Shown piece after piece: positions 3,699-36,190 of a stretch of DNA of 42,657 nt. Position numbers and translations under genes: made by a program. This stretch comes from Roseibacillus sp. (GTDB lineage Bacteria; Verrucomicrobiota; Verrucomicrobiia; Verrucomicrobiales; Akkermansiaceae). The first letter of the stretch is position 1. Each line of letters begins with the position of its first letter. The notes below the pieces were generated by a model. It made no database searches and was not told the DNA's origin. It was given only the letters and a program-made list of their open reading frames with translations. The stretch lies in contig NZAC01000020.1 in NCBI GenBank assembly GCA_002686085.1, forward strand, positions 1 through 42,657, given 5' to 3'.

Positions 3699-4124
3699 AT
3701 GGATTTCCCTCGAAAATGCGATAATCCCGTCGAAATGCGTGCACTGGGTCATGAACTGGCGCAGGAAGTGGAGCCTGGGCAGGTAATTGGGCTGGATGGC
3801 GATCTGGGAGCCGGAAAGACGGAATTCGTTAAGGGTCTCGCTGCCGGAATGGGTTATGAGGGGCTGGCCACCAGTCCTACCTTTACCCTGCTGCACGAAT
3901 ACGCTTCAGGAAAGCGAGTCCTGTATCATCTCGATTTCTACCGGGTAGAAGGCGAGCAGGAGATTCTTGCTCTCGGGTGGGATGAGCTTCTGGAGGACCC
4001 AGCGGGAGTGGTCGTGGTAGAGTGGGCTGGTAAATTTGCCGAATTACTTCCTCCCGGGGCGCTGAGGCTCCACTTGGATCTGGCCTCTGAGAGCGGCCGT
4101 CGGATCCTGCGGCAAGCTTCGTGA
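3699..4124 (+). CDS. tsaE: tRNA threonylcarbamoyladenosine biosynthesis ATPase TsaE
   Basis: A 141-residue P-loop ATPase that works with TsaB and TsaD in making the t6A modification at position 37 of ANN-decoding tRNAs. The Walker A motif GDLGAGKT is at residues 34-41. It is followed by the family blocks SPTFTLLHEY, LYHLDFYRV and VVVVEWAGKF. Length is normal. The ATG at 3699 gives a full N-terminal helix, with a purine-rich GGAGGGAGG stretch about 15-20 bases upstream. Its last 81 bases overlap the end of a small lipoprotein gene on the other strand. Confidence 0.95.
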   Translation: MDFPRKCDNPVEMRALGHELAQEVEPGQVIGLDGDLGAGKTEFVKGLAAGMGYEGLATSPTFTLLHEYASGKRVLYHLDFYRVEGEQEILALGWDELLEDPAGVVVVEWAGKFAELLPPGALRLHLDLASESGRRILRQAS

Positions 4125-4334
4125 TAATCGGGCTGCCTCGGAATGCTTCAGGGCGAGGCCATGACTTCGGAAGGATTCGGCCGTGGCCGGCGGCACCTGC
4201 TCGTCGACATCGGTGACCGTGCGCACGCCGGCCTGCATCAGTCGGACAGGAGCCTGAATGAGCCTCCCTGCAAGGGTGCAGGAGGAGAGGCTGGGAACGG
4301 TGAGCAGAAGAGCGAATAGAATGATGTGTTTCAT
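4044..4334 (-). CDS. Small putative lipoprotein, function unknown
   Basis: A 96-residue product beginning MKHIILFALLLTVPSLSSCT. This is a short basic start, a hydrophobic core and a lipobox (LSSC, Cys19), so it should be lipidated and anchored in the envelope. The remaining 77 residues are polar and basic, with no family I recognise. It lies 92 bases downstream of the two selenoprotein genes on the same strand and may be the last gene of that operon. Its 3' end overlaps the tsaE coding sequence antisense by 81 bases. The signal sequence is the main evidence that it is real. Confidence 0.6.
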   Translation of the reverse strand: MKHIILFALLLTVPSLSSCTLAGRLIQAPVRLMQAGVRTVTDVDEQVPPATAESFRSHGLALKHSEAARLSRSLPQDPTAALRGQIQVEPQRPGRK

Positions 4335-4426: not shown

Positions 4427-5149
4427 CTAGGTTTCCTCTTTGGTGAGCTCGGCGGCCTTCGCGAATACCTCACCTTTCCCTTCTGCGACGATTTTGCCGT
4501 CCTTGCTGAGGAGTTTGTAATTCGGGACCGCACGAGGCATATAGTCCTCAAATCCACCCTCATTAAGTTTGTCCATCATGACGGTCGGCCAGGGAAATCC
4601 TTCTTTCGCCGCCCAAGTCTCGGCGGCTTTCTTGTCCCGGTCGAGGCTGACATGGATCATCTCGACAGCAGGATTGTTTGCGATCTCGGCTTGGTATTGC
4701 TTCACCAACTGTGGAGCAGAAGTGCGGCAGGGCGGTCACCAACTCGCCGAAAAATACACGATGTAATAGTCGGGAGTCTTGGTGAGCTTATGCCCGACAA
4801 AGTTCTCTCCCTCAATCTTGGAAAGCACTCCTTCCTGCGCCAGATTCTTACCTATTTTATTGCCCTGCGGGGCGTTGTCGCCTCCTTCGCCGTCACTCGC
4901 AGCTAGAAGGATTTTGTGACCTTCTTTTTTAAGAAAATTCCGGTCTTCTTCCGAAAGGAGGCTGATTTTGAAAGTCCTTAGCTTCCCGCCCTCCATGAGA
5001 ACGGTGACTGTTTTCGCCGTCTCACTCAGGTCGCGCAGTTCTCCTTCAAAAGTTTGGGAGCCATCGGCGCTGGTCCACGTCCGGGCGGCGAGGGGTCCTT
5101 GGCCAACAAGTGCCAAAGAGGCAGCGAATAGTAATATTTTTGGGTTCAT
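4427..5149 (-). CDS. Exported SHD1-thioredoxin-like selenoprotein (UPPC), UGA at 4736-4738 read as Sec
   Basis: A 240-residue exported protein if the in-frame UGA is read as selenocysteine. It has a signal peptide (MNPKILLFAASLALVGQG, cleaved near residue 22), an SHD1-like beta domain (about 23-76, RTWTSADGSQTFEGEL onward) and a nucleoredoxin/TlpA-like thioredoxin domain (about 120-240). The active site reads YFSASW-U138-P-P-C141-RTSAPQLV, where the family has WCxxC. After the UGA the frame continues with HVSLDRDKKAAETWA and KEGFPWP, typical thioredoxin-fold sequence, to a TAG stop. A SECIS-like hairpin follows the UGA. The ATG at 5149 is preferred over an in-frame ATG at 5191 because it opens the signal peptide directly; neither has a clear Shine-Dalgarno. 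Likely role: thiol/disulfide exchange in the periplasm. It lies 58 bases downstream of its paralogue. Confidence 0.88.
4700..4716 (-). promoter_or_regulatory. SECIS-like hairpin of the UPPC selenoprotein
   Basis: Read on the minus strand, counting the U of UGA as 1, nucleotides 23-39 fold as CUCCAC / AGUUG / GUGAAG. There are five pairs with one C-A mismatch, closing a five-base loop whose second base is G. Bacterial SECIS elements are short hairpins at about this distance from UGA, with a G in the first two loop positions. An identical loop at the identical distance occurs in the neighbouring gene. Confidence 0.7.
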
Positions 5150-5207
5150 CAGAGTCGGGGAAACGAAGAATACGCTTAACGGAAGCGTCATCGGAGGAGA
5201 AAAAATG

Positions 5208-5822
5208 TCAATTTTTTAGGGAAATAGTCGCAAAGGCCTCGCCCTCGTCCTTGGTGAGAACGCTGCCCGCGCTGTCCACGAGCCGCACCTCACCAGGCCA
5301 AGCGTCATACTGGGCGAGCCCTGCCCGCTCAAGGTCGGAAAAGAGAATAGTAGGCCATGTAAACCCCTCTTGCCGAGCCCATGTAAGAGCATCCGCTTCG
5401 ACTTCATCGCAACTAACGTGGACCAGTGCCACCTCAGGGTTTGTTGCGATTTGACTTTGGTATTTCTCCAGCAACTCTGGAGCGTGTACTCGGCAGGGGC
5501 CTCAAGTGCTTCCACTAAAATTGAGGAGATAATACCGGGGCGCCTTGGGCAGATCTGCTTGAACGTAATCGCCCCGGACGAGGTAATTTGTCAGGCCAAG
5601 AAGCTTGCTGCCGAACGTCTGTGCCTTGAGGGCGGCGACGATTTCAGGGGCAGGTGCCGGTGGGCGCTCCTGCAGTCCCTTGGGCCGGCTAGTATTGAAA
5701 GGCGGTCCTGTCTCTTTGCAGGAGACAAGCATCACGAGGCTTGTCATGCCCACGAGGAGCAGGCGCCACCGACTGACGGACTGAAAAGGCAGGGTATTCA
5801 AGGCCATGGAGGGGGGGAGCAT
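5208..5822 (-). CDS. Thioredoxin-like selenolipoprotein (UGPC), UGA at 5502-5504 read as Sec
   Basis: A 204-residue product if the in-frame UGA is decoded as selenocysteine. The N-terminus carries a hydrophobic stretch ending in a lipobox (LVSC, Cys35), then a proline-rich linker and a nucleoredoxin/TlpA-like thioredoxin domain (about 92-204). The redox site reads NFSGST-U107-G-P-C110-RVHAPELLEKY and continues with HVSCDEVEADALTWARQEGF. It is a paralogue of the downstream UPPC protein but lacks the SHD1-like domain. The final TGA at 5208-5210 coincides with the end of the fold and is taken as a true stop. Start may be the ATG at 5822 or 5807. The gene begins 14 bases after the hydrolase-like gene, so they should be co-transcribed. 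Confidence 0.87.
5466..5482 (-). promoter_or_regulatory. SECIS-like hairpin of the UGPC selenoprotein
   Basis: On the minus strand, nucleotides 23-39 counted from the U of UGA form a perfect 6-base-pair stem, CUCCAG / CUGGAG, around the loop AGUUG. Placement, stem length and loop agree with the element in the downstream gene. The loop-closing pair is G-C here and C-G there, a compensatory change. Confidence 0.78.
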
Positions 5823-5836
5823 GAGTAAAGTGACTT

Positions 5837-6757
5837 TCAGGGTTCTTCGTCGGACGGGCTGGCGGGCTCCCAGAGGTCCTTCAAGAATCCTCGGAGAAGG
5901 CCCCAGGATCGCTTGTCTGCCTCAGGGCTGTAAGCCTGGGGAATCCGGAACTTTTCGCCAACCATGTCGGCGTTCGGAACGGTGAAGCTTTGCATCGCAT
6001 CGGGGAAGGGAATGATTACGAGGTCAGTTTTTACGCTCGCCATTTCGTTGCGAAATGCCTCTACCTTGCCCTTTCTGAGGTGGACGTAGGGGTCCTCGAG
6101 GGCGTTACAGACCATGACCTTTGCGGTTGCCTTCCGGATAGGGGGCTGAGAGGGCACTACATTAAATAAGGGATGAAACGCGATCACCGCCCCGAGCCCG
6201 CGCATTCCGTTCCTCGCCATCTGAAGACAGACGTCTCCTCCGCTTCCGTATCCTACGGCGGCGATCTTAGCCCCATCTACCTCTGGTCGCTCTCTGAGAA
6301 ACTTGAGGTGGGCGAGCACCCTGGCGTTCATTTCGCGTTGGTTTGCCTTGAGAGCCCCATCGAGCTTTACAGCGGTCTTTGGGTCGTGCGCTTTCTGTCC
6401 GTTTCCATATACGTCCATTGCCAGCGCGGCGTAGCCTAGTTGGGCGAGCATCTCCGCCCTCATGCGGACGTAGTCGTTATGCCCCCACCATTCTGGACAG
6501 ACCAGAATGCCAGGGTAAGGCCCGGCTGTCTTTGTTGCCGGAAGGGCGAGGTAGGCTTTGGCTACGATCGCTCCAGCAGTGAAGGTTACTTCTTCAGAGG
6601 TATAACCAGGCCCACCATTTCCGGCAGGTTCACGCACGGCGTCTTCACTCTGTGCTGGAGGGGACCCTGGATCATCTTCCCGAGCTGCGCCCTGTCCGAG
6701 AAGGGCGACAATAGCTGTAACCGTGGTGAGAGCTTTCAGAAGAAAGTCAGGGGTCAT
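5837..6757 (-). CDS. Exported dienelactone-hydrolase-like protein with degenerate catalytic triad
   Basis: A 306-residue alpha/beta-hydrolase-fold protein of the dienelactone hydrolase family. It has a signal peptide if started at the ATG at 6757 (MTPDFLLKALTTVTAIVALL); the frame is open to 6793. The fold is clear: GILVCPEWWGHNDYVR, GYAALAMDVYGNG and KIAAVGYGSGG. The catalytic residues look lost. The nucleophile elbow, normally GxCxGG, is GYGSGG with Gly at the nucleophile (residue 171 from the chosen start), and the usual KHSF histidine is Gln256 in AMQSFTVP. Only the aspartate (in ALEDPYVH) is retained. It may bind rather than hydrolyse a ligand. It is the first gene of the selenoprotein operon, 14 bases ahead of the next start. 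Confidence 0.85.
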   Translation of the reverse strand: MTPDFLLKALTTVTAIVALLGQGAAREDDPGSPPAQSEDAVREPAGNGGPGYTSEEVTFTAGAIVAKAYLALPATKTAGPYPGILVCPEWWGHNDYVRMRAEMLAQLGYAALAMDVYGNGQKAHDPKTAVKLDGALKANQREMNARVLAHLKFLRERPEVDGAKIAAVGYGSGGDVCLQMARNGMRGLGAVIAFHPLFNVVPSQPPIRKATAKVMVCNALEDPYVHLRKGKVEAFRNEMASVKTDLVIIPFPDAMQSFTVPNADMVGEKFRIPQAYSPEADKRSWGLLRGFLKDLWEPASPSDEEP

Positions 6758-7280
6758 GCGATACGACGTTACCCGGAGTTTAGGCCGTCGCAAGGCTTCA
6801 AATCCTGTCTCGTTTGCGGGCTTAATCGTAAGCCGGCGAAGGTGAAATTCTTTCCGCTATTCGGTATCTCGTCTTGAGATAAAGGCGAGGGCGGACCACT
6901 GGGATAGCGCCTGTCGGGGGCGCCTCTAATGCTTTCTCTGATCAGTTTCGGGGAGCGTGGGAGGGGCGATGAAAGATAGAGTGGGGCCCAAGGCTTCTAA
7001 CTGCGCCGAGAAGTGGGGGCTCGAGGAGGAGGCCCTACTGCGTTCTGGGTGTGGGAAAATTAGGCGTGGATGACTAAAATCTTCAGGAAAATTACGTTCA
7101 ACCCGGAAATATTGGTCACGAAAAAACGGAGGATTTTCCTGCTCACAGGGCGATTTAGCTACACATTGCCTAGTATCTAAGCCATCTTTATGACCATGAA
7201 GCGTATCCTTGACCCTCTGGTGCCAGCGGATCTTGGATGGACCACTCAGGGCCGAGAATTACCTGCAGAGCGATAGCGCC
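6758..7280. other. Intergenic region between the selenoprotein operon and cdd
   Basis: About 520 bases with no convincing gene. It separates two divergent transcription units and should hold both promoters. It contains a perfect 9-base inverted repeat (CAGGAAAAT at 7084-7092 and its complement at 7133-7141). A 28-codon open frame (7189-7275) lies just ahead of cdd. I see no RNA gene or strong promoter consensus. Confidence 0.5.
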
Positions 7281-14123: not shown

Positions 14124-15350
14124 ATGAAACCCTCTCCACCTTTCCGATTTTCTGCCCCGCCTGTTATGCGAATCATCTGCCTATTGCTGGCTATGGTGAC
14201 CGGTCTTTACGCCAACGGCTTCTACATACCCGTCCAGGACCCCTTTGCAGCCTCACGAGGGAATGCGTTTGTCGCAACCGCTGACCGCCCATCTGCGGTC
14301 TTCTATAACCCTGCTGGATTGACGCAGCTTGATTCCGCGACAGTGCATGTCGGCGTTTACGGTGTGCGCCTCGGAATAGATGGAGAAACAGCGATCGATG
14401 GCGGAAGCTACCAGAACAAGGCGGAGTTTATTCCCCTTCCCCAGTTTTATGCTGCTGCTCCGCTCAACGACCGCCTGTCCGCGGGGGTTGGCCTGAACGC
14501 GCCCTTTGGCCTGCGCACGGATTGGGGAACAAGCACGCCTTTCCGAGCGGTTGCAACCGAGACCGACCTTACCTATGCCACGGCCTGGGGCGTCCTTGGG
14601 TATGAGTTGAGTTCCGACCTTTCCATCGGAGGGGGGCTTGCCCTGACTTATGCTGACGGGACTCTGAAGCAATTTTTGCCTCCGCCAAATCCGCCTGCGG
14701 AATTTGGCTTCGAGGGAGATGATTATTCCACGAGCTGGATTGCCTCGCTGTTGTGGCAGCCTGGTGGCCGACACTCCTTCGGCCTTACCTATCGGGCCAA
14801 GACTGAACTCGACCTTTCGGGGTCGGCGGCGGCGCCGGGAATTGGCTTGGCCATTCCCGACGCGGGCTTGGACCTGGTTACTCCGGATACTCTGGTTGCA
14901 GGATACGCATTTCGGCCGAACGAGCAGTGGACACTGGAAGCCAATGTTGAGTGGGTAAATTGGAGGCGCCTGAAAGTTCCAACCCTGCGTCAGGCACCGC
15001 TGCCAGAAAATCCGATCCCCTTTAATTGGGAGTCTAACTTCATGTATGGATTCGGGGTGACATATGCGCCTAACGAAACCTGGGCCTTCAACGCAGGCTA
15101 TATTTTCATCGAGAACAGTCAGCCAGATCTGAATTTCAACCCGGCAATTGCAGATGCGGATCGGCACTGGCTGAGTGCCGGGGTAAGCTACAAGGCGGCA
15201 ACGTGGACCGTCGACCTTGCCTATCAGTATGCCTTTTCAGATCGGACGGTCCTTGATCCAACCCCTGAATTTGATGCCGGTGATCTGGTAGCAGGAGACT
15301 ACAGTTCGAGGTTTCATGGGTTAATGCTCTCGTTTAACCGGTCTTTTTGA
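14124..15350 (+). CDS. FadL/OmpP1/TodX-family outer-membrane transporter
   Basis: A 408-residue outer-membrane beta barrel that passes long-chain fatty acids or other hydrophobic molecules. The start at 14124 gives a long signal sequence; an in-frame ATG at 14166 (MRIICLLLAMVTGLYANGFY) gives a more standard one. The mature N-terminus (NGFYIPVQDPFAASRGNAFV, then PSAVFYNPAGLTQL) is the FadL hatch signature. Strand motifs alternate to the end, closing with an aromatic terminal residue (FNRSF), as expected for barrel assembly. It is the last of five closely spaced genes that start with the PhcB-like methyltransferase. Confidence 0.9.
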   Translation: MKPSPPFRFSAPPVMRIICLLLAMVTGLYANGFYIPVQDPFAASRGNAFVATADRPSAVFYNPAGLTQLDSATVHVGVYGVRLGIDGETAIDGGSYQNKAEFIPLPQFYAAAPLNDRLSAGVGLNAPFGLRTDWGTSTPFRAVATETDLTYATAWGVLGYELSSDLSIGGGLALTYADGTLKQFLPPPNPPAEFGFEGDDYSTSWIASLLWQPGGRHSFGLTYRAKTELDLSGSAAAPGIGLAIPDAGLDLVTPDTLVAGYAFRPNEQWTLEANVEWVNWRRLKVPTLRQAPLPENPIPFNWESNFMYGFGVTYAPNETWAFNAGYIFIENSQPDLNFNPAIADADRHWLSAGVSYKAATWTVDLAYQYAFSDRTVLDPTPEFDAGDLVAGDYSSRFHGLMLSFNRSF

Positions 15351-15421
15351 GTTGCCAGCTGGGCGACTTGCCCTTGCGGAAATGTCGCGCGGCGGGCACA
15401 TTTTTGGGAAACCCAGTTCGT

Positions 15422-17899
15422 ATGCGAGTTCTTTCCCTGTTCCTTCCCGGGATCGCGGTGCTTCCCTTGGTGGCTGGCGCCCCGAGGGCCTGCGCCGCAT
15501 CCGCGGAGCAGCATTGGGCGTTTCAGTTGCCTGCCCGTCCGTCTCTTACGGGAAAGAGCCACCCTGTGGATGAGCTTCTGGCTATTCGTCAGACGGAGAA
15601 AAACCTTAAACCGGTGCCTGATGCCGCCCGCGAGGTGCTCCTGCGCCGGGCGTGGCATGTGATTACTGGGCTCCAGCCTCCGACGGCTCTCGGCACTCAG
15701 GTCGCTGGGGCAGAGGAGGAGCCTCTGCCAGAATGGAGTGCTCGCATGATTGATAAGGCCCTGTCTTCTCCGCACTATGGAGAGCGCTGGGCGCGCCACT
15801 GGTTGGACGTTACTCGCTATGCGGATACCAAGGGCTACGATTTTACAGCCGGACGCCTCTTCCCCTTTGCGTTCACCTATCGGGATTGGGTCATAGAGGC
15901 TCTGAATAAGGACCTGCCTTATGATGAGTTTCTCCGTAGGCAGATTGCGGCTGACCTGATGGATGTGCCAGTGCGAGAGCAGGCCGCCCTGGGCTTTCTT
16001 ACTCTGGGACGCCGCTACCTGAACAAGTATGACCTCATCATTGCGGATCGGATTGATGTCACGTTCCGGAGCACGATGGGGCTCACTATGCAGTGTGTGC
16101 GTTGCCATGATCACAAGAGTGACCCGCTTACCATGCAAGATTACTATGGCCTCTACGGCGTGTTCGATAGCACGGAGGAGGTTCCTGAGGGAGAATTGCC
16201 CGTGATTGCCTCCCCTGAGGACTCGCCCGGCTACCGGGCGTTTCGTCGAGAGCTTCTTAAGCGGGCAAATGCCGCGCATGATTATGCGGCGGAAAAGATC
16301 AAGGACTACCAACGTCCTCCCGACCCCCTCGACTTTGATCGGAAGAAGGCTCTCTCGCAGCTCAACCAGACCGAAAGAGGCAAATACCGGGGGCTCTTGG
16401 CCAAGATGGATGAGCTTGAGGGCAAATCGGAATTTGCGCCCCTGAGGGCAATGGCTGTCCGGGATCGACCAAAGCCTCGGGAGCCGGTTATCTTTGAGCG
16501 GGGGCAGCAATCCAGCCGGGGCCCGAGGGTTCCTCGAGCATTTCCGGCCTTCTTTCGGGAAGACCCTGCTAATACTTTCAAGAAAGGTAGTGGCCGTCTC
16601 GAGCTCGCAGAGGAGCTGACTCGCAAGGGGAATCCTCTAACGGCCCGGGTTTGTGCAAACCGCGTCTGGATGCATGTCATGGGGAGCCCGCTTGTGAACA
16701 CTCCGGGAGATTTTGGATTGCAGGCTCCACCCCCGCTTCACGAGGACCTTCTCGACCACCTTGCTCTTTATCTTCAGGAGCAGGATTGGTCGGTCAAGGC
16801 CCTGATCCGGCATATCATGACCTCTCAGGCTTGGCGGCGCAGTAGCAAGGCTGGCCCAGAGCACGCGGAGAGTGACCCTGAAAACCAGTATTATGTCCGC
16901 AGCAATCGTCATCGGAAGGACCTCGAGTCCTGGCGTGATACGACCTTGCAGGTGAGTGGCCATCTCGAACTCCGGCTGGGAGGCCGCCCCGTGAAAATCC
17001 ACGAAGCTCCGTTTCCGCCTCGCCGCACAATTTATGGTCTTATTGAGCGTCAGAATACGCCGTCCTTCTTTCGGATCTTCGACTTTCCAGATTCCAGTCA
17101 GCCCGTTGTGAAGCGTGCATTCACCACCACGCCGAATCAGGCCCTCTACCTCATGAACAGCCCTTTCATGCATGAGCAGGCAAAGGCTGCAGCCGGGATG
17201 TCTTCGGGGCGTGACAATGAGCAAGCGCGAATAAGGGCGCTCTACAATCAGATTCTCAAACGGAATCCATCCCTTGCGGAAACGGCAGCGGCAGAACGCT
17301 TTATTGGATCCACCTCCGGGGAGAAGTCCCAGACTTCGGGAGCATGGAGCTATGGACATGGCCGCCTGCTCCGGGATACCGGGCGGGTGGAATTCAAGTC
17401 CTTGGCTCACTATACCGGGAAAGTGTGGCAGGGAGGCCCTGAGTTGCCGGGATCGAAGGCCGGATGGGTGCACTGGCATGCTGGCGGGGGTCACCCGGGA
17501 AAAGGGGACCACGCTGCTATTCTTCGGTGGGTTGCTCCCAAAAGCACGACCATTGAAATTACCGGCGAGCTTTCAAGACCTGGCCTTAAGGGCGATGCCG
17601 TTCGGGGCCTTGTAGTTGCTCGCCGTACGATTGCCGGACAATGGACTGTGCTCCCCGGGAAAAAGGCTCAGACGCTGCTGAATCTCGAAGTCACAGCTGG
17701 GGAGGCAATTGACTTCCTAGTCGAGTCAACCGGGAACGAGGCGTGGGACAGCTTTCTTTGGAGCCCTGTCATCCACGAGCGGGGGGAGCCTGTTCCTCTT
17801 GCGGAGGCACGGGAGGGGTTCTCCGGTCCCGCGCTGGATCGGTGGCCCTTGCTCGCGCAAGTCTTGCTTCTCTCCAACGAGTTTCTTTACGTCGACTGA
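15422..17899 (+). CDS. DUF1549/DUF1553 exported protein with CxxCH motif
   Basis: An 825-residue exported protein of the planctomycete/verrucomicrobial DUF1549-DUF1553 type. The start at 15422 gives a signal peptide (MRVLSLFLPGIAVLPLVAG). DUF1549 features are HYGERWARHWLDVTRYADTK and the CVRCHDHK motif (C225, C228, H229), a possible haem or metal site. DUF1553 spans GSGRLELAEELTRKGNPLTA to the terminal LAQVLLLSNEFLYVD. About 140 residues with a beta-sandwich look (WSYGHGRLL onward) are inserted just before that terminal block. No N-terminal cytochrome c domain is present. The partner DUF1501 gene follows by 29 bases. The biochemical function of the family is unknown; genomic association with polysaccharide breakdown is commonly noted. 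Confidence 0.92.
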   Translation: MRVLSLFLPGIAVLPLVAGAPRACAASAEQHWAFQLPARPSLTGKSHPVDELLAIRQTEKNLKPVPDAAREVLLRRAWHVITGLQPPTALGTQVAGAEEEPLPEWSARMIDKALSSPHYGERWARHWLDVTRYADTKGYDFTAGRLFPFAFTYRDWVIEALNKDLPYDEFLRRQIAADLMDVPVREQAALGFLTLGRRYLNKYDLIIADRIDVTFRSTMGLTMQCVRCHDHKSDPLTMQDYYGLYGVFDSTEEVPEGELPVIASPEDSPGYRAFRRELLKRANAAHDYAAEKIKDYQRPPDPLDFDRKKALSQLNQTERGKYRGLLAKMDELEGKSEFAPLRAMAVRDRPKPREPVIFERGQQSSRGPRVPRAFPAFFREDPANTFKKGSGRLELAEELTRKGNPLTARVCANRVWMHVMGSPLVNTPGDFGLQAPPPLHEDLLDHLALYLQEQDWSVKALIRHIMTSQAWRRSSKAGPEHAESDPENQYYVRSNRHRKDLESWRDTTLQVSGHLELRLGGRPVKIHEAPFPPRRTIYGLIERQNTPSFFRIFDFPDSSQPVVKRAFTTTPNQALYLMNSPFMHEQAKAAAGMSSGRDNEQARIRALYNQILKRNPSLAETAAAERFIGSTSGEKSQTSGAWSYGHGRLLRDTGRVEFKSLAHYTGKVWQGGPELPGSKAGWVHWHAGGGHPGKGDHAAILRWVAPKSTTIEITGELSRPGLKGDAVRGLVVARRTIAGQWTVLPGKKAQTLLNLEVTAGEAIDFLVESTGNEAWDSFLWSPVIHERGEPVPLAEAREGFSGPALDRWPLLAQVLLLSNEFLYVD

Positions 17900-29871: not shown

Positions 29872-32031
29872 GTGACTGGAATCGTGGCAGGCCTCCTGCC
29901 CGTCCTATTGCTTTCTGCCCCCGGGGATGCCCGCGAGGCCGCGGCCACCTCGAGCCATTGGGCCTGGAGCCCCTTGGGGAAGACTGCCCCGCCGTCTTCC
30001 GGGTCACCACGGGCAAAGACCCCGCTGGACCACTTTATTTTTTCAAGGCTTTCTGACGCCGGAGTTGAGCCGGCTCCTGACGCGGCTCCCCGGGAGTTGC
30101 TGCGGCGCGTCCATCTGGACTTGACCGGCTTGCCTCCCACCCCTGCCGAGATGGAAGCCTTTTTGCGCAACCCCGGGGACGAGGCCTATGCCCGTGTTGT
30201 GGACGGCCTCCTGAGCCGCCCCCAGTATGGTGAGAGATGGGGGCGCCACTGGCTCGATGTGGTCCGATACGCAGAGACGAAAGGCTACGAGCGGGATGAG
30301 TACAAGAAGTTTGTCTGGCGGTATCGCGATTATGTCATCCAGTCCTTCAACGAGGATAAGCCGTATAATCAATTCATTCTCGAGCAACTTGCCGGTGACG
30401 AAATTGAAGGGGCGACCTCGGACACCCAGATCGCGACCACCTTTCTCGCCCTTGGAACCTTCGACACCATTGCTGCGGACCGGGAGGTGGCGGTCTATGA
30501 CACCTTGGATGATATTGTGGCGACCACCTCAATGGCGTTCCTCGGGCAGACCTTGCAATGCGCGAGGTGCCACGATCATAAGTTTGAGCCTTTCAGCCAG
30601 AAAGACTACCACCGGGTTCTCGCGTCCTTCGAATCTCTCAATGTGACGGGGCGGGAGAGAGAGGTTGGCACGGACGAGGATCGGAAGCGATATCGTGAGG
30701 CTGAGGAGGCGTATCGGCGCACTACCCTCGACCCGCAGCGCGAGATCGAGGAGCAGTTCTGGGCTCCGATTCTTGAGCGCTGGGCGAAGGACGGTTTGCC
30801 GGAGGGACGTAAGGCAAAGCTGAATGAGAAGCAGCTGGCCCTTACGATTGAAGCAATTCCGCTCGCCCTGGATCGACGCTCCAAGGAGCAGCGGACATTC
30901 CTGGAACGGGAACGCCACCGGGTCCGCGGCGCGGTCCGGGAGGTGGCTACCGATGAGGAGCGCAAAACAATCTCAGAGCTTGAGCAGAGGTTGAAGAGCC
31001 TCGAAAAAGACAAGCCCCAGCCCATGATGGCCTGGGTGTATGCCGATAGTGCCAAGCCTAAGCCATCGCACCTCCGAATCAGAGGGGACGTCCACCAGAG
31101 GGGAGAAGTCATTCCGTTCGGGGTTCCGGTCGTGCTGGGTTCCGAAGGGTTACCGGAACCCCGGCCCACCAGCCATTCGTCTGGTCGGAGGCGGGCCCTC
31201 GCGGACTGGATCACCGGGGCGCAGGCCCCTCTGGCCGCGCGCGTCATGGCCAACCGGGTTTGGCAATATCATTTCGGCAAAGGCCTGATGGAGGATGGAA
31301 ATAATTTTGGAGTGGAAGGGGGCGAGCCCACCCATCCGGCCCTGCTCGAGTGGCTGGCAAATTCGTTGATTGAGGGAGGCTGGAAGCTCAAGCCCCTGCA
31401 CCGGCAGATCGTCCTTTCTTCTACCTATCGCCTCTCAGCGGCGCATCCGGAACCCGGAAAGGATCCGGATAACGCCCTCTACTCCCGGTGGCCCCTGCAT
31501 CGGCTGGAAGCCGAGGCAATCCGCGATTCCATTTTGGCCGCAAGCGGGAAGCTGAATCCTCAAATGGCGGGGCCTCCCATTTATCCGCCTTTCGCCGACA
31601 AGGTGGTCGGGGCCTCATCGGGTGCGGATTGGAAAAACTCGACGGAAGAAGAGGCCTCCCGGCGGAGCGTCTATGTTTTCGCCAAGCGCGCCATCCCGCT
31701 TCCGGAACTGGCGGTATTGGATAACCCGGATTCTTCCTGTAGTTGTGCCAAGCGTGCGGTGTCGACTACCGCGGTGCAGTCTCTCCTGATGATGAACGGA
31801 CGCTTCATCAATGAGCAGACCGTGCACCTTGCGAGCCGCCTCCGGGAACTGGAGGGTGAGGAAGTTCAGATCGAGGCGGCCTTTGATCTCATCCTGTGCC
31901 GTCCGCCAAGCACACGGGAAATGGAGCAAGCAAAGGAATTTCTCGGAAAGGCAGCCCGGGAGCAGAAGATCGATCCTCTCGCCTCGCTCGCGCTGGTGCT
32001 CTTCAATACCAACGAGTTCAGTTACCGCTAG
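29872..32031 (+). CDS. DUF1549/DUF1553 exported protein with CxxCH motif (second copy)
   Basis: A 719-residue protein starting at GTG, with a short signal peptide (GIVAGLLPVLLLSAPG). DUF1549 blocks are PLDHFIFSRLSDAGVEPAP, YGERWGRHWLDVVRYAETKGYERDEY (interrupted view) and the LQCARCHDHK motif (C230, C233, H234). A coiled charged middle section follows, then DUF1553 blocks: AARVMANRVWQYHFGKGLMED, STYRLSAAHPEPGKDPDN and the end ALVLFNTNEFSYR. It lacks the inserted beta-sandwich of the first copy. The partner DUF1501 gene begins 5 bases after its stop, so translation is probably coupled. Confidence 0.93.
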   Translation: MTGIVAGLLPVLLLSAPGDAREAAATSSHWAWSPLGKTAPPSSGSPRAKTPLDHFIFSRLSDAGVEPAPDAAPRELLRRVHLDLTGLPPTPAEMEAFLRNPGDEAYARVVDGLLSRPQYGERWGRHWLDVVRYAETKGYERDEYKKFVWRYRDYVIQSFNEDKPYNQFILEQLAGDEIEGATSDTQIATTFLALGTFDTIAADREVAVYDTLDDIVATTSMAFLGQTLQCARCHDHKFEPFSQKDYHRVLASFESLNVTGREREVGTDEDRKRYREAEEAYRRTTLDPQREIEEQFWAPILERWAKDGLPEGRKAKLNEKQLALTIEAIPLALDRRSKEQRTFLERERHRVRGAVREVATDEERKTISELEQRLKSLEKDKPQPMMAWVYADSAKPKPSHLRIRGDVHQRGEVIPFGVPVVLGSEGLPEPRPTSHSSGRRRALADWITGAQAPLAARVMANRVWQYHFGKGLMEDGNNFGVEGGEPTHPALLEWLANSLIEGGWKLKPLHRQIVLSSTYRLSAAHPEPGKDPDNALYSRWPLHRLEAEAIRDSILAASGKLNPQMAGPPIYPPFADKVVGASSGADWKNSTEEEASRRSVYVFAKRAIPLPELAVLDNPDSSCSCAKRAVSTTAVQSLLMMNGRFINEQTVHLASRLRELEGEEVQIEAAFDLILCRPPSTREMEQAKEFLGKAAREQKIDPLASLALVLFNTNEFSYR

Positions 32032-34636: not shown

Positions 34637-36190
34637 TTATTTGCGCTCCCGAAGGTTTTCGAGGAACGAGGAGGCCGTGGCATGCCAGCGATTTTTCATC
34701 TCCTCGACCCGCTTGGGATGGATACGGGCGAGGTTTCTTGTCTCGGTCCGGTCAGAAGCAAGGTTATAGAGCTCCCATGGATCTCCCTCGGCGGCCACCA
34801 GCTTCCAGTCTCCGCTCCGCAGGGCGCGATGGCCCTCGTGGAGCCACCAGAGGTGCTCATGAAGGGGCTTCCCGTCACCGTCGAAGGTAGCCTTCAGAGA
34901 CCGCCCGGGTGCGGGCTCTTTTTGAGCGGGCTTCAATCCGGCGAGATCAAGGAGAGTTGGGGTGAGGTCAATGACATGGGCAGGTGTGCGTCTCAGGGCG
35001 TTGCGCTCCTTGATGCCCGCGGGCCAGTGAGCGATAAAGGGGGTGGCACATCCCCCTTCGTGGACCCACGTCTTGTGGCGGCGAAAGGGGGTATTGCATG
35101 CGGTGGACCAGCCCGGGCCAAGGCAAAGGTAAGTGGAGGCGGAACCGGCTGGGGCGTTGGGATCGTGGCCATCTGCCCGGACCATAATTTCGGCACTGGC
35201 CCCATTATCGGAGAGAAAAATTACGAGGGTGTTGTCCCACGCGTCCATGGTGCGCAGCTGCTGGAGGATTCGGCCGATCTCCTGGTCCATCCGTTCCACC
35301 ATTGCAGCATGGATGGCCATCTTGGACTGCTGGAAGGCTTGCTGCTCTTCGCTGAGCTCGTCCCAAGGGAGAGGGCGATTCACCTCACCAGGCCCAAGGA
35401 TTTCAAGATGCTTAGGAAAATGGTAAGGAGGACCAAGTTCTCTCTCGGCCTCAGGGAGTGCCCCGCTCGCGATTCCGAGTTTCTGGATTCGGCGCCACCG
35501 CTGGGTGCGGATTCGGTCCCAACCTATCTGGTAGCGGGCTTCGCACTTTGCGATGTCTTCAGGAAGAGCGTGCAGCGGAAAATGCGGAGCTGCGAAGGCG
35601 ACATATTGAAAAAATGGAGTGCCTCGGTGATCGGCCGCGTGCTCCTTGAGATGGTCAATGGCCGCATCAGCTACCGCGACAGTTCCATAGTAGCCAGAGC
35701 CTCGCTGAATGGGAGGGAGTTTCATATCGTCCTTCCAATGTGTTTGTGGACTGAAGAAGCGGCCCTGGTCCTTGAGGTAATAGGAATGCTCAAAGCCGTT
35801 GCGGAGGGGCATTCCGTCAAGGTGCCACTTGCCTGAGTGATAACAGCGGTAGCCTGCCTCTTTGAGAGTCACGGAAACAAGTGGGGCCCACTCAGGCCTG
35901 CTCCCCCTGGTTTTGCTCCCCGGCAGATTATCACGGCGGATCTGTTGAGCGTAGTAGCCGGTGAGCAGTGCGGCCCGCGTGGGCCAACATCGGGCCGTAT
36001 TGTAAAACTGGGTATAACGTAGCCCTTCCTTGGCCAGGCGGTCGAGGTTGGGTGTCTGGATCTCTCCTCCATAGCATCCCAGATCGGAGTAGCCGAGATC
36101 GTCGGCCATGATCAGCAGCACATTGGGTGTTGGCGCTGCTGCTGCCAGCCCGGAGAGGCCGAGGAAGATGAGAATAGAGGGCCAGAGCAT
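34637..36190 (-). CDS. Exported sulfatase (arylsulfatase type)
   Basis: A 517-residue type I sulfatase with signal peptide (MLWPSILIFLGLSGLAAAA). It starts the mature fold with PNVLLIMADDLGYSDLGCYGG (metal-binding aspartates). The maturation motif is C68-W-P-T-R in ARCWPTRAALLTGYY, where the cysteine is converted to formylglycine. Further signatures are HSGKWHLDG, FLSDNGASAE and HEGGCATPFIAHWP. Such enzymes remove sulfate from polysaccharides or aryl sulfates in the periplasm or outside. Substrate cannot be told from sequence. The anaerobic or aerobic maturase is not in the window. Confidence 0.95.
   Translation of the reverse strand: MLWPSILIFLGLSGLAAAAPTPNVLLIMADDLGYSDLGCYGGEIQTPNLDRLAKEGLRYTQFYNTARCWPTRAALLTGYYAQQIRRDNLPGSKTRGSRPEWAPLVSVTLKEAGYRCYHSGKWHLDGMPLRNGFEHSYYLKDQGRFFSPQTHWKDDMKLPPIQRGSGYYGTVAVADAAIDHLKEHAADHRGTPFFQYVAFAAPHFPLHALPEDIAKCEARYQIGWDRIRTQRWRRIQKLGIASGALPEAERELGPPYHFPKHLEILGPGEVNRPLPWDELSEEQQAFQQSKMAIHAAMVERMDQEIGRILQQLRTMDAWDNTLVIFLSDNGASAEIMVRADGHDPNAPAGSASTYLCLGPGWSTACNTPFRRHKTWVHEGGCATPFIAHWPAGIKERNALRRTPAHVIDLTPTLLDLAGLKPAQKEPAPGRSLKATFDGDGKPLHEHLWWLHEGHRALRSGDWKLVAAEGDPWELYNLASDRTETRNLARIHPKRVEEMKNRWHATASSFLENLRERK

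Follow-up and report, generated by a model that had tools for sequence, protein, structure and literature searches.

The window, that is, the whole stretch of DNA analysed (42,657 nucleotides), corresponds to positions 1-42657 of contig C20 in a multi-contig assembly of a Roseibacillus sp. genome of 3.95 Mb (96% complete). Two adjacent genes for thioredoxin-fold proteins, each with an in-frame TGA, are located on its minus strand, together with the following features:

4044..4334, minus: small lipoprotein-like gene (weak DUF6726), downstream of the pair, a conserved neighbour
4427..5149, minus: gene 1, SHD1-like and thioredoxin-fold, predicted exported selenoprotein (read-through translation, TGA=U)
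4698..4718, minus: predicted SECIS hairpin of gene 1, GCUCCAC-AGUUG-GUGAAGC, with one C.A mismatch and an extra G-C closing pair (family model, 40.3 bits)
4736..4738, minus: in-frame UGA of gene 1, candidate Sec, first position of UxxC (UPPC) (translation and homologue alignment)
5208..5822, minus: gene 2, predicted lipoprotein-type thioredoxin-fold selenoprotein, 204 aa including Sec (read-through translation)
5466..5482, minus: predicted SECIS hairpin of gene 2, CUCCAG-AGUUG-CUGGAG (family model, 36.7 bits)
5502..5504, minus: in-frame UGA of gene 2, candidate Sec, first position of UxxC (UGPC) (translation and homologue alignment)
5837..6793, minus: dienelactone-hydrolase-family gene (Pfam DLH, 113 bits), directly upstream of the pair

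In the order of transcription, gene 2 comes first and is followed by gene 1. A gene order running from the DLH hydrolase through gene 2 and gene 1 to the small lipoprotein is conserved in 13 Roseibacillus-type loci; the DLH gene and the pair may form one operon. Gene 1 ends at a TAG codon (4427-4429); its longest ORF, read with TGA as Sec, starts at ATG 5191 and gives a 254-aa frame (4427-5191, minus), but its true start is probably ATG 5149, resulting in 240 aa including Sec, since the orthologues begin with MNPK or MNLK. Gene 2 ends at a further TGA (5208-5210), which was taken as a genuine stop because the orthologues are of the same length and some of them have TAA there. The two read-through proteins share 41% identity across 116 residues. 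The internal TGAs on which the preliminary description was based were both confirmed by reading the sequence and by translation with TGA=U, appearing within YIVYFSASW-U-PPCRTSAPQL in gene 1 and YLLNFSGST-U-GPCRVHAPEL in gene 2. Elsewhere in the window, the ORF of ribosomal protein L27 (2973-3506, minus) has an N-terminal extension of ~90 residues, the frame of which relatives partly preserve and which may be no more than a start called too early; moreover, two PSCyt2/PSD1 (DUF1549/DUF1553) proteins (15347-17899 and 29872-32031, plus) and a sulfatase (34637-36190, minus) were observed.

The equivalence of each UGA with the first cysteine of the CxxC site, also proposed in that description, was found in every read-through homologue (30 loci), where the UGA column aligns with that residue. 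Thus, judged from this alignment, the placement of the UGA is not a chance event. When Cys-containing homologues were included, as had been suggested, 73 sites were compared, 63 of them having TGA and 10 having TGC at the same column. Furthermore, the dN/dS values after the UGA ranged from 0.03 to 0.22 for both genes wherever computable, which indicates that the protein encoded downstream is under purifying selection.

A hairpin begins 19 nt past the UGA, with the family form CUCCAC-AGUUG-GUGGAG and the loop appearing after 25 nt. Two-sided changes were detected in five of its six pairs (17 such cells), involving the exchanges C-G to U-A, U-A to G-C and A-U, A-U to G-C and C-G to G-C, and the loop-closing C-G pair is swapped to G-C in gene 2 and its orthologues. 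None of 500 shuffles reached the observed covariation score, and shifted registers scored far lower. The loop starts with AG(U/G)U in all 88 distinct UGA sequences and in none of the 10 TGC (Cys) homologues. Moreover, the information in synonymous codons amounted to 0.7-3.2 bits at codons +5 to +13, being mostly lower than 0.4 elsewhere; the bias was strong in most of these codons, with its peak (3.15 bits) at a Leu codon that is always TTG or TTA. Since the compensatory changes, the peak of synonymous constraint and the absence of the loop motif from Cys homologues coincide, the hairpin after each UGA is, by comparative sequence evidence, a bacterial SECIS element. This covarying hairpin adds to the selenoprotein reading a kind of evidence that went beyond the preliminary description. 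The comparison was what established the element, as an Rfam search of this stretch gave no SECIS match, only sub-threshold chance hits.

According to the bacterial SECIS model described in PMC13188914 (Fig 2A), a G is expected in the first two loop positions, with a spacing of 16-37 nt and a free energy <= -7.5 kcal/mol. The loop G and the spacing were found in both hairpins, while the energies of the conserved hairpin alone were -7.6 kcal/mol for gene 2 and -4.3 kcal/mol for gene 1, a weak value, against that -7.5 limit; for the 55-nt stretches, folding energies of -12.8 and -9.1 kcal/mol were obtained. For gene 1, the stretch around the conserved hairpin has a different fold as its energy minimum, and single-sequence folding (z=+0.6) was uninformative. 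An additional pair closes the base of the stem in 17 of the 20 copies with the C.A mismatch, compared to 18 of the 68 without it. When the SECIS covariance model was run on the whole source genome, only the two sites of the pair appeared above noise. A third match (C37:52383, 24.9 bits) had no suitable in-frame UGA upstream and was discarded.

The complete set of selA, selB, selC and selD, whose search had been recommended, is present in the source genome, namely a tRNA-Sec with UCA anticodon (67.3 bits), SelA (503 bits), SelB (281 bits, above the cut-off) and SelD (369 bits). SelB carries the winged-helix domains SelB-wing_2 and SelB-wing_3, the part of the protein that binds SECIS elements. 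The selD gene, which lies ~3 kb past the end of the window, is apparently a selenoprotein gene itself:

C20:45278-46327 (L091:3279-4328), minus: selD with its own in-frame TGA (SSCAG-U-ASK)

The co-occurrence with selA was analysed in 289 genomes of the order Verrucomicrobiales, of which 49 had a clear TGA homologue (matches to about E 1e-25). A selA gene was found in 48 of these 49 genomes, whereas it appeared in only 45 of the 240 others (Fisher p=1.8e-27). The sole genome with a UGA gene and no selA match was G249, in which the copy (L054, G249:C76) contains an additional TAG and no longer has the PPC motif; the gene may have decayed once Sec decoding was lost, or the assembly may be incomplete.

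A scan of species genomes yielded 44 further loci with 58 TGA and 2 TGC sites, all titled as Verrucomicrobiota or its genera (Roseibacillus, Akkermansiaceae MAGs, Rubritalea and Persicirhabdus). No relative of gene 1 was found in viral contigs and no match to the gene pair in phage records. In a tree of 97 sequences, which was built on few columns and has many weak forks, the orthologues of gene 1 from the Roseibacillus-type clade grouped apart from those of gene 2, and TGC sequences were scattered at several places among the TGA ones. Other tandem TGA pairs (L127 and L056) are closely related to each other in this tree, so tandem duplication probably occurred more than once. A single tree of the family thus displays exchange between Sec and Cys, accompanied by loss of the SECIS loop, and apparently repeated tandem duplication of Sec genes. 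As a further observation, three UGA thioredoxin genes in tandem, instead of two, occur in L114/L074 (Roseibacillus sp. ANT-131, G250).

Regarding the proteins, gene 1 matched the Pfam families Thioredoxin_8 (PF13905, 44.2 bits), Redoxin (PF08534, 37.4 bits) and AhpC-TSA, while gene 2 reached borderline scores only. The structure model of gene 1, with U read as C (pLDDT 83.5), matched ResA, StoA and tryparedoxins, as the sequence search likewise did, and displays a small N-terminal beta domain followed by a thioredoxin fold with UxxC and a cis-Pro loop (VP before the last strands). The fusion to SHD1 that had been described holds only at the level of the family, where 11 of the 24 homologous N-termini match SHD1 (PF03983; best 6.1e-6) and 15 match the SH3 model DUF150_C; the N-terminus of the copy in the window matched neither model. 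That both products are exported and that gene 2 encodes a lipoprotein, as had also been proposed, is suggested by signal and lipobox motifs judged by eye (MLVSC|K in gene 2 and LLASC|G in its orthologues).

Other explanations of the in-frame UGAs were weighed against this evidence. The pair could consist of pseudogenes or ordinary short genes in which translation really ends at the TGAs and what follows is a remnant or a separate gene with an internal start, as would be suggested by ORF finding by program, which gives each gene as separate fragments, and by the degraded copy in the genome with no selA match. Nevertheless, this is extremely unlikely given the purifying selection past the UGA, the order-wide conservation of the UGA exactly at the Cys position, the covarying hairpin and the finding that in none of the 13 syntenic loci is either gene disrupted past the UGA; homologues either run on as constrained protein or have Cys there, so the site does not behave as an ordinary stop. 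Even less credible, to the point of being negligible, is a sequencing or assembly error that changed TGC or TGT to TGA. Such errors do occur in multi-contig assemblies like this one, but TGA is found at both sites in two independently assembled relatives (L102 and L103, 92-97% identical), and the cultured R. persicicus and R. ishigakijimensis have TGA in their homologue, with the hairpin.

The UGA might instead be read as another residue without selenium, by Trp or Cys reassignment or by leaky suppression. UGA does encode Trp in some codes, and the reading frame alone is silent on the residue inserted; however, TGA also serves as terminal stop of these genes where orthologues use TAA, the tRNA-Sec (UCA) and the full Sec machinery are present, selA co-occurs with the UGA genes, and the SECIS loop motif is absent from the TGC homologues, all of which makes this explanation very improbable. 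The tandem selenoprotein pair put forward in the preliminary description is thus strongly supported: the three refutations named there beforehand (missing sel genes, an assembly error and an ordinary stop) were all tested and all failed. It is almost certain, as far as sequence evidence goes, that the locus encodes two paralogous exported thioredoxin-fold selenoproteins whose UGA is read as Sec via SelB and SECIS.

Sec insertion in cells, the location of the products, their electron donor and their substrates are matters that we infer as follows. SelB bound to the hairpin beginning 19 nt after the UGA would deliver Sec-tRNA(UCA), so that the UGA would be decoded as selenocysteine and the ribosome would go on to the downstream stop. 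The products would be thiol-disulfide oxidoreductases with a thioredoxin fold and a UxxC active site, that of gene 1 being presumably periplasmic, with an N-terminal SHD1/SH3-like domain, and that of gene 2 probably a lipoprotein. The nucleophilic attack would be made by Sec, and the second Cys would then be the resolving residue. A DsbD-like membrane reductase, a homologue of which is present in the source genome, is a plausible electron donor, and the substrates would most likely be oxidised thiols of envelope proteins, or peroxides. A broader proposal, speculative and rather unlikely, is that these lineage-wide, repeatedly tandem-duplicated exported SHD1- and lipoprotein-thioredoxin selenoproteins of Verrucomicrobiales constitute a dedicated selenium redox relay of the envelope, in which the two neighbours transfer electrons between themselves or hand them on to an envelope substrate that they share. 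The use of selenium in the envelope is directly testable in the cultured carriers Roseibacillus persicicus, R. ishigakijimensis, Rubritalea profundi and Persicirhabdus sediminis. Because standard annotation would cut each gene at the UGA, a set of selenoproteins that spans the order in marine Verrucomicrobiota can easily be overlooked.

According to PMC9312934, PMC13188914, PMC2398784 and PMC1088965, the replacement of the first Cys by Sec is a familiar feature of thioredoxin-fold proteins, and the UxxC families PF13905 and PF08534 are already listed as selenoproteins (PMC9312934, PMC13188914). In the searched text of those four papers, Verrucomicrobiota is not mentioned, and neither is SHD1 in the papers where this term was searched; a search of the literature available without subscription turned up no paper that combines Roseibacillus with selenocysteine. 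Hence, the unfamiliarity attributed to the pair in the preliminary description does not extend to the UxxC thioredoxin-fold kind, which is listed; the combination of an exported SHD1-like fusion and a lipoprotein partner appears not to have been listed. In the PDB, the best matches by fold and by sequence are the extracytoplasmic oxidoreductases ResA/StoA/TlpA and the tryparedoxins, which are reductive thioredoxin-fold proteins with CxxC; in contrast to the pair, they have Cys instead of Sec, no SHD1-like domain was matched in them and the identity is ~20-27%. Among selenoproteins, the thiol-disulfide isomerase-like family, which Sargasso Sea data first revealed (PMC1088965) and which is assigned to PF13905 (PMC9312934; representative MAK15852.1) or cd02966 (PMC13188914), shares the Thioredoxin_8 fold and the Sec at the first UxxC position, and the Redoxin UxxC selenoprotein (PF08534), as listed in PMC13188914, shares UxxC and the redoxin/TlpA-like fold with gene 1. 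Judging by their descriptions, both differ from the proteins presented here, in which an export signal is followed by a SHD1/SH3-like domain at the N-terminus of gene 1 and a lipoprotein paralogue lies in tandem.
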